Assembly: GCA_021604505.1 (NCBI GenBank)
Contig: BQJC01000002.1
Span: forward strand, 248,001 to 312,000
Source: Nitrospinaceae bacterium
GTDB lineage: Bacteria > Nitrospinota > Nitrospinia > Nitrospinales > VA-1
Length of the DNA stretch: 64,000 nucleotides
Direction of reading: 5' to 3'
The position numbers and the translations under genes are program-made. The notes beneath the pieces were generated by a model. It made no database searches. It saw only the letters and a list, made by a program, of their open reading frames with translations, and was not told the DNA's origin. Shown in pieces: positions 8,538-60,066 of the stretch; positions within the stretch are counted from its first letter, which is position 1; the number at the start of each line of letters is the position of its first letter.

Positions 8538-9200
8538 TTATTTAGTGGCTGTTGGTTTTTCTTCCTTCTCCTCTGATGAAGCCGCTGCCGCAGCCTCTTC
8601 ACCTTCCGCGGCCTCTTCACCTTCCGCAGGAGCCTCTTCTTTTACTTTCTCCACATAGACACTAACAACGGTGGTGCCAGGGTCTTCCAAAATGACGATA
8701 TTGTCAGAAACCGAAAGATCCTTAACATGAACGACGTCCCCTAACTGCACATCCGGCATATTGACTTCAATTGCTTCGGGGATATCGCCCGGCAGGCATT
8801 CCACTTCAATTTCCCTGGTGGCTTGGTTGACCAACCCCCCCAGTTTTTCACCCGGTGAATGCCCCACAAACTTGACGGGAACAAAAACCCGGGTTTTTTT
8901 GTTCATATCGATTTCCAGAAAGTCGACATGCAACCACTCCCGGCGCAACGGGTGCTTTTGGAAATCTTTCAAAATGACCTGGCGCTGGCCTGCGCCATCG
9001 CCTTCAATATTCAAGGCGATCAGAACATTGTGGCCATGCTTTTCCATAATTTTATTCATTTCCTTAGGATTGACCTTGAGAGAAAGGTTATCCTTCAGGC
9101 CATAAAGAACCGCCGGAAGGAACTCTTCCCGCCGGACCTTACGGGCCGCGGATTTCCCGCCCTGTTCCCGCATTTTCCCACTCAATGTCACAGATGCCAT
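8538..9200 (-). CDS. rplY: 50S ribosomal protein L25/TL5/CTC, long form
   Basis: L25 binds 5S rRNA in the large ribosomal subunit. At 220 residues this is the two-domain CTC/TL5 form. The N-terminal 5S-binding domain is seen in KSAARKVRREEFLPAVLYG and FQKHPLRREWLHVDFLEID. The beta-rich C-terminal domain runs from about residue 95 to 185. An Ala/Glu-rich tail (EEAPAEGEEAAEGEE) follows. It lies 16 bp downstream of prs and 18 bp upstream of pth, in the conserved order prs-rplY-pth. Confidence 0.95.
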   Translation of the reverse strand: MASVTLSGKMREQGGKSAARKVRREEFLPAVLYGLKDNLSLKVNPKEMNKIMEKHGHNVLIALNIEGDGAGQRQVILKDFQKHPLRREWLHVDFLEIDMNKKTRVFVPVKFVGHSPGEKLGGLVNQATREIEVECLPGDIPEAIEVNMPDVQLGDVVHVKDLSVSDNIVILEDPGTTVVSVYVEKVKEEAPAEGEEAAEGEEAAAAASSEEKEEKPTATK

Positions 9201-9216
9201 GTTGTCAAACTCCCAA

Positions 9217-10182
9217 TCAATCGAATAATGAACTTACCGATGTTTCGCGGTGAATTCTGAGAATCGCTTCCCCAAGAAGGGGAGCGACAGATAAAATCTT
9301 TATCTTCGGACTGTCGTTCAATTCCGCGGGCAAAGGAATCGAATTGGTGGTCACAATCGTTTTGATCGGCGACTCACGAATCCTCTCTGGCGCCGGCCCT
9401 GAGAACACAGGATGCGAACAACAGGCGTGCACCTCCCTGGCGCCTTCTTTCAACAAGGCGTTAGTGGCCTCCATCAACGTCCCGGCGGTATCGATCATAT
9501 CGTCTACAATAAACGCCACTTTGCCTTTTACATCACCAATGATATTCATGGCCTTTGCCTCATTAGCCACTTCCCGGCGTTTGTCAATGATGGCCAAAGA
9601 AGCCTCCAATCGTTTGGCAAACGCACGTGCCCGCTCAACCCCCCCGGCATCCGGGGAAATAACGATCAGGTTTTCCAGATTGAGTCCCTTAATATATTTG
9701 ACCATTACGTTCATGGCAAATAAATCATCCACGGGAACATTAAAAAACCCCTGGATTTGACCGGCATGCAAATCGACGGTCAGCACCCGGTCGGTTCCTG
9801 CCGTCTCCAACAGTTTTGCGACCAGCTTGGCGGTGATCGGAACCCTCGGTTCGACTTTCCGATCCTGCCGGGCATACCCGTAATAGGGCAGGACCGCAGT
9901 GATCCGCTTGGCAGATGACCGGCGGAGCGCATCGATCATGATGAGCATTTCCATCAGATTGGTGTTCCCTGGGTTGCTGGTCGATTGAATGACAAAGACA
10001 TCCCCACCGCGGACGTTTTCGTCGATCTTCACGAAGATCTCCTGGTCCGAAAAGTCGCGAATCCCCGATTTTCCCAGCGGGACATTCATATAACGGCAAA
10101 TATCTTCTGCTAATTTCGGATTGGCTCTGCCTGAAAAGACCAAAACCTTACCGTTCCCATTATCACCCATAGGTTTGCGCAT
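9217..10182 (-). CDS. prs: ribose-phosphate pyrophosphokinase (PRPP synthetase)
   Basis: Prs makes PRPP from ribose 5-phosphate and ATP, feeding nucleotide, His and Trp synthesis. The 321-residue protein has the class I pattern: DQEIFVKIDENVRGGDVFV, the Arg-rich PYYGYARQDRK loop, VDLHAGQIQGFF, and the PRPP-binding VAFIVDDMIDTAGT motif. An alternative start at the fifth residue (MGDNGNG) is possible. It begins 12 bp after the 3' end of tRNA-Gln. hisG and other PRPP users lie in the same window but in separate operons. Confidence 0.95.
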   Translation of the reverse strand: MRKPMGDNGNGKVLVFSGRANPKLAEDICRYMNVPLGKSGIRDFSDQEIFVKIDENVRGGDVFVIQSTSNPGNTNLMEMLIMIDALRRSSAKRITAVLPYYGYARQDRKVEPRVPITAKLVAKLLETAGTDRVLTVDLHAGQIQGFFNVPVDDLFAMNVMVKYIKGLNLENLIVISPDAGGVERARAFAKRLEASLAIIDKRREVANEAKAMNIIGDVKGKVAFIVDDMIDTAGTLMEATNALLKEGAREVHACCSHPVFSGPAPERIRESPIKTIVTTNSIPLPAELNDSPKIKILSVAPLLGEAILRIHRETSVSSLFD

Positions 10183-10194
10183 CCACCAAATTAA

Positions 10195-10266
10195 CTGGGG
10201 CGGGAGGATTCGAACCTCCGCATGCAGGAATCAAAATCCTGTGACTTACCGCTTGTCGACGCCCCA
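10195..10266 (-). tRNA. tRNA-Gln (anticodon TTG)
   Basis: The 72-nt minus-strand sequence folds as a cloverleaf. The acceptor stem TGGGGCG pairs fully with CGCCCCA. The anticodon arm is CAGGA-TTTTGAT-TCCTG with TTG in the loop. The T arm is GGAGG-TTCGAAT-CCTCC and the discriminator is G. The CCA end is not encoded. It lies just upstream of prs, as tRNA-Gln does in several proteobacteria. Confidence 0.97.
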
Positions 10267-10469
10267 ATGGTTTAAGTAATTCCTTAATATTGTAAAGCAC
10301 CACCCGGATTCCCCTGGAAAAACCTTGACCTGAGTCTGGGGAAAAAGCATCTAATCCAGACGGAATCTTATGAATTGAATACTAAATGAGATGGAAACTG
10401 AATTTTGGGGAGGGGTTTGGATTTTTGCGATAAGAGCCATCCCAAAATATCGATGCGATCTTCACCCTC

Positions 10470-11366
10470 TTAAGGGTAGCTCAACATTTCCTGCGGCCAA
10501 AACTCGGAAAAGCTAGAAACCGTTTCCGTCAAGAACACTCCCCCGTTCCCTTTGTTAAATTTGGCGTACGCACTTTTTGCGCGATCAGGGTTGTCAAAAA
10601 TAGCAAAGACCGTAGAGCCGCTTCCAGATAGAAGACACCCATCGGCTCCCAAGCCAGACAGTTCTTCTCTGATGGCCTGAATCGCAGGATACCTTTTAAA
10701 AACAACAGGTTCCAAATCATTCTCCAGGCACTCCCCCAAGCAGGCAACCTGCGATTCCAATAAAAATTTTTGCAAAATGCTAATATTATTTTTCCGCTTT
10801 GTCAACTTCAATTTTAGGTTCTGATAGACCCAGGAAGTGGCGATGGAAACCCCGGGATAAATAAGCAAAACGTAAAATTTTGCAGTGGTTTGCACCGGCG
10901 CCATCTCATCACCGCGCCCCTTTCCCAAAGCGCAGGGAGCGGTGAGGAAAAAAGGCACATCGGACCCCAGTTTTTGCGCCAGGGGAACCAGGTCTTCCCG
11001 GCTCAATTTCATATCCCAAAACACATTCAGTCCCATGAGAGCTCCCGCCGCATTGCCACTGCCCCCTCCCAACCCGGCTCCTGACGGAATATTTTTTTGC
11101 AAACCGATCCTAACCCCTCGCTTCTCTCCTGGATAGGCCTCCTGAAGCAAATGGGCCGCCTGCAACACCAAATTGGTGTGGTCTTTTGGAATTTCCGGGG
11201 CATCACATTGCAATTCGACTCCCGAGGGGATAGTTTCCAGGGAAATCGAGTCGAACAGGGTGACCATTTGCAACAAGGTGATCAAATCATGGTATCCGTC
11301 CTCCCGTCTGCCGAGGATACGAAGCGCAAGATTAATTTTTGCCGGGGTTTTAAAAGACAGTTTCAT
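10470..11366 (-). CDS. ispE: 4-diphosphocytidyl-2-C-methyl-D-erythritol kinase IspE
   Basis: IspE phosphorylates CDP-ME in the MEP isoprenoid pathway. From the ATG at 11366 the protein is 298 residues, typical for the family. GHMP-kinase motifs are present: TPAKINLALRILGRREDGYH at the N-terminus, NIPSGAGLGGGSGNAAGAL (ATP-binding loop) at about residue 85, and the C-terminal LSGSGSTVFAIF. An in-frame TTG eight codons upstream is less likely because it would overlap the preceding gene. The 8-bp gap to the LolB-like gene suggests one transcript. Confidence 0.95.
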   Translation of the reverse strand: MKLSFKTPAKINLALRILGRREDGYHDLITLLQMVTLFDSISLETIPSGVELQCDAPEIPKDHTNLVLQAAHLLQEAYPGEKRGVRIGLQKNIPSGAGLGGGSGNAAGALMGLNVFWDMKLSREDLVPLAQKLGSDVPFFLTAPCALGKGRGDEMAPVQTTAKFYVLLIYPGVSIATSWVYQNLKLKLTKRKNNISILQKFLLESQVACLGECLENDLEPVVFKRYPAIQAIREELSGLGADGCLLSGSGSTVFAIFDNPDRAKSAYAKFNKGNGGVFLTETVSSFSEFWPQEMLSYP

Positions 11367-27191: not shown

Positions 27192-27231
27192 TAATTCTTG
27201 ACTTAAAAGTAAAACTGCCTAATGCTATACC

Positions 27232-27319
27232 CTTCACTAGGGGTGTTGTTCCAACTGAGATTTCCGTAAGGATGACCCTTGGAACCTGATCTGGATTATG
27301 CCAGCGAAGGGAAGTGAAG
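27232..27319 (+). promoter_or_regulatory. TPP riboswitch (THI element)
   Basis: The conserved THI-box parts are present in order. P1 pairs CTTCACT (27232-27238) with AGTGAAG (27313-27319). The core has GGGGTG, ACTGAGA, GACCCTTGGAACCTGATCTGG, here abbreviated to ACCCTTGGAACCTGATC, then GGATTATGCCAGCGAAGGG. Thiamine pyrophosphate binding is expected to lower expression of thiS-thiG-thiE-thiC downstream. A TTGACT box at 27198 may belong to its promoter, but a matching -10 is unclear. Confidence 0.95.
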
Positions 27320-27506
27320 CGATCTAAGTTTTGATATGCTGCCATTCCTTCAAGCTGTTATCTCGATCACCGGGTTGCAGCTTTCGTTTTAAAAGTCGTT
27401 TCAAAGAAATCTCACCGGCAACAACACACCAAAACGTTTCAGTTACTGTTTTCAATCTAAGTGTAAAAGTTTGAAATTCATAACTATTAAGTTAACGCGG
27501 GAGTGT

Positions 27507-28711: not shown

Positions 28712-31341
<2,630 letters not shown>

Positions 31342-34321: not shown

Positions 34322-34678
34322 ATGCCCCGCGCAGTAAATGGTACCGTTTCAAGAAGAAGAAGAAAAAAAGTACTCAAAATGGCCTCCGGTTACCGGAGCA
34401 TCCGCAGCCGAGCCTATCGAAAAGCCAGAGAGTCCGTTGAAAAGGGGCTGACCTACGCCTACCGGGATCGCAAAGTACGTAAACGCGATTTTCGACGCCT
34501 GTGGATCGCCCGTATCAATGCTGCCGTCAGGGCCAACGGATTGACCTACAGCAAATTCATGCACGGCTTGAAACTTGCCAATATCGACCTGGACCGCAAA
34601 GTTCTTTCCGACCTTGCCATCCACAACCAGGACGCGTTTCAGGCGTTGACCAAAACCGCCCAGGCCCAGCTGGCTTGA
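34322..34678 (+). CDS. rplT: 50S ribosomal protein L20
   Basis: The 118-residue basic protein has the expected long N-terminal helix ([20 protein letters not shown]) and the globular end from [21 protein letters not shown]20 binds 23S rRNA early in assembly and in other bacteria represses rpmI-rplT translation. GGAGAG lies close to its ATG. A terminator follows at 34717. Confidence 0.97.
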
Positions 34679-34716
34679 CTCCTTCGCGGAGGGCGAGCTT
34701 GCTAACGACGGGCAAC

Positions 34717-34744
34717 GCTCTTTAGTTTGGATTAGAGCTTTTTT
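34717..34744 (+). terminator. intrinsic terminator after rplT
   Basis: A 5-bp stem GCTCT/AGAGC with a 12-nt loop is followed by a T6 run. It separates the thrS-infC-rpmI-rplT operon from pheS. Confidence 0.6.
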
Positions 34745-34840
34745 CTATTCTTCGCACTCTCCTGCAAAGTGTGGATTTGCCATCAACCCCGGATAATCTT
34801 TGGGTACAAGGGAAACTTTTTATTCCTCAAAAATCCACCA

Positions 34841-34908
34841 AACGTTAATTTTGGGTCCAGCGTCACGCTGGTCACACGTTAATATTTGACCCAGCCCCAG
34901 GCTGGTGG
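34841..34908 (+). repeat. two-unit array of a 34-bp hairpin repeat
   Basis: Two adjacent 34-bp units (34841-34874 and 34875-34908) share the frame (A/C)ACGTTAAT-TTKG-CCAG-CTGGT. Unit 1 has the stem CCAGCG-TCA-CGCTGG and unit 2 has CCAGCC-CCA-GGCTGG, both perfect 6-bp stems with 3-nt loops. The same two unit types recur, in the opposite order, at 59081-59148. Unit 2 reaches to within 5 nt of the pheS ATG. Confidence 0.85.
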
Positions 34909-58995: not shown

Positions 58996-59080
58996 TTTTC
59001 ACCCCACGGCGCGGGGAGGAAACTATTGAAGGATGGAAAATTCTGCACGATACAAAATCAAGCCAGCCAGAAACCCATCG

Positions 59081-59148
59081 CACGTCAATACTTGGCCCAA
59101 CCCCAGGTTGGTCGCACGCCAATATTGGGTCCAGCGTCACACCGGTCC
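59081..59148 (+). repeat. second two-unit array of the 34-bp hairpin repeat
   Basis: Units at 59081-59114 and 59115-59148 match the array at 34841-34908 with the unit types in reverse order. Unit 3 has the stem CCAACC-CCA-GGTTGG, in which both arms changed together relative to CCAGCC-CCA-GGCTGG. Unit 4 keeps CCAGCG-TCA but has a decayed right arm, which overlaps the last codons and stop of gpmA. Confidence 0.85.
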
Positions 59149-59889
59149 GCCTTTCGCCTGCTGGGCCACCTTTTCCGCGGCTTTTTTGGCGGCTTCCGGG
59201 TCTCCCAGATAATAATGCCTGATCGGCTTTAAGTCCTCATCCAATTCATACACCAGGGGAATGCCCGTGGGTATATTCAAAGAGACAATCTCCTCCTCGC
59301 TGATACCGTCCAGATGTTTAACAAGAGCCCTGAGGCTGTTGCCGTGCGCGCAGATCAAAACTTTTTTGCCTTTTTTCAGGACCGGGATGATCTCCTCGGA
59401 CCAATAAGGCAAAAAGCGTGTCACCGTATCGTTCAGAGCTTCGGTCCTCGGCAGATGTTCTTTGGCAAGACCGGCATAGCGGGGGTCGTTATCCGGCAAC
59501 CGGTCATCGCCCTCCTCCAAAGCCGGCGGCGGCTTCGAATAACTGCGTCTCCAGATCAAAACCTGGTCCGCCCCGTGTTTAGCGGCGGTTTCGGATTTAT
59601 TGAGCCCCTGCAGGCCACCATAATGCCGTTCGTTCAATCGCCAGGACCGCACCACCGGAATCCACATCAAATCCATGCCGTCCAAAACCATCCAGAGCGT
59701 CCGTATGGCCCGCTTGAGCACTGAAGTGAAGGCGATATCAAAGCGATAACCTTCTGCCTGCAGAAGTTTGGCGGCGTTCTCCGCCTCTTGCCTGCCCTGG
59801 GGGGTGAGGTCCACATCCGTCCAGCCGGTGAAGCGGTTTTCCAGATTCCATTGACTTTCTCCATGGCGTAGCAGAACCAGTTTCAACAT
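59137..59889 (-). CDS. gpmA: 2,3-bisphosphoglycerate-dependent phosphoglycerate mutase
   Basis: GpmA interconverts 3- and 2-phosphoglycerate. From the ATG at 59889 the protein is 250 residues. The phospho-His motif is [32 protein letters not shown] and the second catalytic His in [17 protein letters not shown] are present. The last residues, KGGPV, and the TGA stop lie within hairpin repeat unit 4. It is convergent with recN. Confidence 0.96.
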
Positions 59890-60066
59890 CCTCAAGCGTC
59901 TCCTGAATTGTAATATTTGTGTTCAAGTCGGGCCGGAAGTGGCGCCGCCCCTTCCTTCAAAGGCCCCCATTTAAACATATTTTTTGCCAGGCGTTAAATT
60001 CATTTAAGAAAACCTGAAGATCGGCCGTAAAGGTTTCCACAACCCCGGCACAAAACAAGCAACTCG

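Follow-up and report, generated by a model that had tools for sequence, protein, structure and literature searches.

A dispersed, hairpin-ended, REP-like repeat family at gene ends in Nitrospinota and other bacteria

The question raised by this locus is what two arrays of a 34-bp unit, each with two units, represent in a 64,000-nucleotide stretch of a Nitrospinaceae genome (the window). The first-pass annotation described them as a hairpin family with compensatory stem changes, comparable to REP/BIME elements. Both arrays are present, with units starting at 34842 and 34876 and at 59082 and 59116, and the order of the unit types is indeed A-B in the array at 34841-34908 and B-A in the array at 59081-59148. 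Four matches to the 20-base unit consensus were found in the window, all of them in the two arrays, and 100 shuffles gave none. The statement that the stems are always paired is true for three of the four units; the fourth, whose stem was not listed in that annotation, has two broken pairs (Table 1). The 34-bp sequence is not the natural unit; it arises where the 3' end of a longer element has been partly duplicated in tandem.

Table 1. Coordinates of the two elements in the window and of their parts.
Feature	Position	Strand	Description
Element 1	34679..34874	+	First base past the rplT stop (TGA 34676-34678) through the first 3' hairpin
Element 1, initial small hairpin	34679-34691	+	CTCC-ttcgc-GGAG
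Element 1, 3' end	34827-34874	+	Covariance model R1, 57.4 bits
3' hairpin, type A	34857..34871	+	CCAGCG-TCA-CGCTGG, fully paired, tag TTGGGT 5' of it; folded
Second 34-bp unit, type B	34876..34908	+	CCAGCC-CCA-GGCTGG (stem-loop 34891-34905), fully paired, tag TTTGAC; 28.7 bits
Element 2	59002..59111	+	5' cap CCCCACGGCGCGGGGAGGAAA to type B hairpin CCAACC-CCA-GGTTGG (59097-59111), fully paired; 50.9 bits
Second 34-bp unit, decayed type A	59112..59145	+	CCAGCG-TCA-CACCGG (59131-59145), two broken pairs

The variable middle of element 1 may be a mosaic of repeats. The ATG of pheS (34914) is located 3' of its second unit. Element 2 starts six bases past the stop (TAA 58993-58995) of an SMC/RecN-like ATPase gene, and the loop of its decayed unit, TCA at 59137-59139, is the TGA stop of a converging phosphoglycerate-mutase-like gene (59137-59895, minus strand), which thus gets its stop from the element.

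Many copies in the genus have the structure 5'-CCCCAC-TAC-GTGGGG-AGGAAAAG ... AAACCCATCGCACGTTAATATTGGGT-CCAGCG-TCA-CGCTGG-3' and a length of about 60-290 nt. The aligned copies give the consensus CCATAAACCCATCGCACGTTAATATTGGGTCCAGCGTCACGCTGG, and a second small hairpin 5' of the consensus, for example CCCCACTACGTGGGGAGGAAAAG or CCCCGCAACGCGGGGAGGAAAAG, opens many of them. The body between the end hairpins is variable and sometimes contains other repeats. The 3' end is defined and consists of GGGT, a 6-bp stem and a 3-nt loop, with the consensus tag TTGGGT; in relatives the hairpin is also found alone, in 21-bp tandem copies.

The covariation of the stems that was proposed from the units of the window is real in the family as a whole but modest. 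In 94 distinct copies there are 23 cells changed on both sides, compared with 5.2 in shuffles (none of 500 as high), and 95% of the stem cells are paired compared with 89% in shuffles; the covariation counts lean towards the model because the alignment was fitted to it. The innermost pair accounts for 19 of the 23 two-sided changes, G-C having become C-G in 17 copies, and in Intestinimonas copies the outermost stem pair is flipped as well (GGGTGCAGCGTCACGCTGC). Slid controls on the 94 copies failed the covariation test. A second helix proposed by RNAalifold, ACCCA/TGGGT 5' of the core, had zero covariation support and was rejected, and the folding of whole elements was no more stable than that of shuffles. 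The evidence therefore covers the end hairpins and no larger RNA fold.

Copies were sought with BLAST and with a covariance model of 48 positions built from 19 copies. The genome to which the window belongs (3.64 Mb, below the own genome) has about 35 copies at E<0.01, so that the family is not restricted to the two loci in the window, and the copies are mostly found outside genes or at gene ends, in support of a dispersed palindromic family. Four congeners have 35-103 copies, and matches were obtained in 37 of 60 relatives and copies in 41 of 77 Nitrospinota genomes, where reversed controls gave 0-1. Near-identical elements with the same upstream sequence are located on named Nitrospinota/Nitrospinaceae contigs. 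An element with upstream sequence of the Nitrospinota type is also present on a contig labelled Planctomycetota (JAESQQ010000208.1, locus L160), which may be mis-binned.

The same 3' core, GGGTCCAGCGTCACGCTGG, was found in Nitrospinota, Verrucomicrobiota and Oscillospirales, with a 19-base hairpin sequence common to the phyla. An exact scan of 84,980 genomes for TTGGGTCCAGCGTNACGCTGG gave at least 120 stretches; among the matches listed, Nitrospinota are in the majority, followed by Clostridia/Oscillospirales and Verrucomicrobiota, while some are labelled Nitrospirota and one Planctomycetota. The core is constant between lineages and the 5' flank lineage-specific; because the scan was exact and the 120 stretches listed need not be all, the phyla named are a sample, and the constant core is in part a product of how the copies were selected. 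With up to three mismatches, as many as 331 core copies were found per bearer genome and 0 or 1 copies of the reversed pattern; a few Clostridia have a single core copy each. Searches of plasmid, phage and E. coli collections gave nothing beyond short, chance-like matches. There is high confidence that the family is real, dispersed and hairpin-ended.

Most REPs have been sorted into the GTAG and CGTC families, and the CGTC REPs have no dedicated transposase (Di Nocera et al. 2013, PMC3733652). The present family is a REP in the broad sense, a palindrome of 20-40 bp with many dispersed, mainly extragenic copies, and its whole element is longer. The likeness to REP/BIME elements pointed out in the first-pass annotation holds for the form, that is dispersed palindromes, paired stems and compensatory changes, but not for linkage to RAYT genes. 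The family shares with the CGTC REPs the short high-copy palindromes, the occurrence in several phyla, the position mostly downstream of genes and that no dedicated transposase was found. CGTC REPs have an unpaired CGTC (or TGTC/CCTC) tag, a stem of 8-9 bp, a loop of 4-5 nt and CCA-type tails (PMC3733652), whereas in this family the tag is GGGT, the stem 6 bp and the loop 3 nt long, the body is longer and a different second hairpin lies at the 5' end; CGTC is found in it only inside the stem or loop. With the GTAG REPs and REPINs with RAYT the family has in common the tag beside the hairpin and, in one Verrucomicrobium, REPIN-like inverted pairs. Unlike these, the family has neither an unpaired GTAG tag (the tag is TTGGGT) nor RAYT-flanking copies, and the Nitrospinota copies are asymmetric with unlike end hairpins. 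REPIN-like inverted pairs were found in 4 of 10 Verrucomicrobial cores, 0 of 36 cores of other Nitrospinota, 1 of 23 in B2T1L10 and 1 of 21 Clostridial cores. In the Verrucomicrobia Tous-C9LFEB (L135, L142, L113, L173) unlike hairpins are inverted, for example GCAACGTGACGTTGC-ATCCA ... TTGGGT-CCAGCGTCACGCTGG, over about 80 nt. Another long palindromic repeat, CGTCATCGCGAGC...GCTCGCAATGACG, resembling the CGTC type, is located inside or beside some elements (upstream regions of L025 and L352).

Non-autonomous elements derived from IS200/IS605 have no genes and carry different hairpins near their two ends. The family agrees with them in the unlike end hairpins and in having no gene, and no parent transposon with the ends of the family was found. 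The remark that it is not known from a described list still stands, as there was no Rfam match for the window and seven bearer loci and no paper with the core sequence in the open-access literature searched. A text search of RepRanger (PMC12306157) found no mention of Verrucomicrobia, Clostridia or Nitrospinota. The repeat family is thus REP-like in form and probably in working and is placed outside the GTAG and CGTC families, with no cognate transposase found among the Y1_Tnp genes examined.

The sequences flanking 60 copies of two congeners were placed on C1:1-800000 and C2:1-452000 of the own genome. Presence and absence at orthologous sites, a mark of MITEs and other non-autonomous transposons, were found: at L347, L348, L352, L359, L370, L383, L384 and L385 the own genome has both neighbour genes but not the element. 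The filled and empty sites differ in size by about 90-290 nt; the coding sequence is kept and, in most pairs, also the position of the stop, as for argJ in L384. Gain is the simpler reading of these sequence pairs, although loss is possible for each. Between rplT and pheS, each of the four congeners examined has one or two copies; in the other genera that were read this gap is short and has none. No target-site duplication was seen by eye in the filled/empty pairs, and the intergenic sequence between species is too diverged to place the 5' junction to the base. Confidence that the family is mobile is good.

For the contact between copies and genes, opposite-strand ORFs of 90 codons or more that ended up to 250 nt beyond or up to 60 nt inside the 3' end were considered, and the longest was taken for each copy. 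The gap from the stop of the converging gene to the last hairpin base is zero in 29 of 192 cases (18/73 in the genus, 11/119 in other lineages), and in 24 of 192 (8/73 and 16/119, respectively) the TGA in the hairpin loop is the stop of the gene. At random sites in the same loci the corresponding numbers are 6 (0.6%) and 2 (0.2%) of 1062. Each gap of 1-8 nt is represented by a few copies at most. The in-loop class is partly built in, as one of the three frames in which a gene can enter the element necessarily ends at the loop TGA; it is still over-represented, with 24 of 38 read-through cases compared with the one third expected. This does not apply to the zero-gap class. Nine of ten zero-gap genes tested matched a Pfam family, several of them to the natural C-terminus, and the full proteins that abut the hairpin include ArgJ, Fpg, YidC, a MoaA-like protein and lumazine synthase. 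At the other end, the 5' cap is flush with a sense stop in 8 of 58 copies with a perfect stem, and any other offset is found in at most 2.

All seven tRNAs detected beside the core in Oscillospirales loci abut it exactly: three end directly at the core, and in the other four the CCA of the hairpin serves as the 3' CCA of the tRNA. Because these loci were picked for a visible tRNA, the seven show exactness and not frequency. The hairpin's first three bases are the tRNA 3' CCA on the Clostridial contigs L064, L108, L120 and L139. A plain TAA/TAG/TGA target was also considered; before copies without an abutting called gene, the enrichment of these trinucleotides is only weak (15/201), and a plain DNA target motif therefore fails to explain the contact with stops.

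Four rival explanations were compared with these data. In one, the family is a REP mobilised in trans by a RAYT or another Y1 transposase of the IS200/IS605 type, in agreement with its REP-like size, its tag and hairpin, the REPIN-like inverted pairs in a Verrucomicrobium and the RAYTs present in several bearers. Two RAYT-type Y1 transposase genes that closely resemble each other, one of them shortened, lie in tandem in the own genome (C1:1443524-1444836; L023, about 8913-10867), but the proposed proximity to such genes was not supported, since no family copy was found in the 20 kb around them. They are set in a different repeat, GTAGTCAAGAAAAGACTTGACCCC, and constitute with it a separate RAYT/REP system in the same genome; in other Nitrospinota the RAYTs occur among GGGGTCAAGTCTTGAC repeats. 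Family copies did not convincingly flank any of 30 Y1_Tnp loci taken from bearers; the single good match adjoins a weak partial hit, and the genome concerned has about 27 copies and 18 Y1 matches. In the 77 Nitrospinota genomes Y1_Tnp does not track copy number (11/33 bearers vs 17/44 others, p=0.76), and it was not detected in genomes with 61-113 copies; as some assemblies are incomplete, absence from a single genome is weak evidence and it is the absence of a trend that counts. A mover of this kind is therefore quite unlikely. That the junctions with stop codons and tRNA 3' ends are exact, and that element length varies, would also suit a retro-inserted RNA, where an RNA 3' end (a tRNA CCA or an mRNA cut at the stop) is joined to the element RNA or primes its copying. 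This is very unlikely, as RVT_1 does not track copy number in the 77 genomes either (7/33 vs 7/44, p=0.38) and was not detected in the genome with 261 copies, and as the 5' end of the element is flush with sense stops too. A search for a common protein family near the element at 160 loci gave nothing mobility-like, the main shared sets coming from related phage contigs.

It is rather unlikely that the family is primarily a functional 3'-UTR element under selection, with a post-stop hairpin acting on translation termination, mRNA 3' ends or convergent transcription and with spread as a secondary property. Contact without a gap to real stop codons, seen in three lineages, and the compensatory stem changes are consistent with such a function, as are the E. 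coli REPs that, located within 15 nt of a stop, are reported in work cited in RepRanger (PMC12306157) to stall ribosomes. The family resembles those REPs in having a hairpin close 3' of the stop codon but differs in having no gap at all or in carrying the stop within the hairpin loop. Selection for nearness predicts gaps of 0-15 nt, whereas each gap of 1-8 nt has a few copies at most; orthologous genes in sister species are without the element, the host genes are unrelated, and a genome-wide habit of hairpins after stop codons was rejected since the own genome has no general excess of them. The least probable explanation is that ordinary intrinsic terminators have converged on one sequence. 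Some Clostridial copies do adjoin tRNAs near T-rich terminator hairpins (read by eye), but neither in the window nor in most copies is the core followed by a T-run, and an exact 19-base core across phyla, together with lineage-specific flanks, would not be expected.

The family is thus probably mobile, a dispersed non-coding repeat with hairpin ends that behaves as a REP/BIME or MITE does. The element, which has no gene, would be moved by machinery supplied in trans, and the terminal hairpins would be what this machinery recognises, because the paired ends are conserved and the middle is variable. Movement, rather than repeated loss, appears to be behind most of the presence/absence polymorphism. 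The copies may have settled at gene ends because an insertion there would do almost no harm if it directly follows a stop or tRNA end or itself provides the stop or the CCA, and a hairpin left directly after a stop may at the RNA level affect mRNA ends or termination. Confidence is moderate for the reason for the placement at gene ends and low for the mover. Harmlessness of the site does not by itself account for a gap of exactly zero. A system common to Nitrospinota, Verrucomicrobiota and Oscillospirales whose integration senses real gene 3' ends (translated stops and mature tRNA ends) and not DNA sequence, for example via RNA 3' ends, is conceivable but unlikely.

A REP-like family that belongs to neither the GTAG nor the CGTC group, that keeps an identical core in different phyla and for which no mover was found would raise the question of what mobilises orphan REPs. 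How small repeats find or tolerate the ends of genes could be tested through the zero-gap contact with stops and tRNA ends, and where a copy supplies the stop of a gene, these repeats become a source of new C-termini.

Several related phages with common proteins near the core are represented by the viral contigs L178, L187, L191, L192, L202, L205 and L209. In one group of phage contigs the core reads as LGPASRW ahead of a ClpP-like protease. Elsewhere in the window, a TPP riboswitch at 27229-27329 (plus strand) precedes a cluster of thiamine genes that includes thiC (29425-31341).
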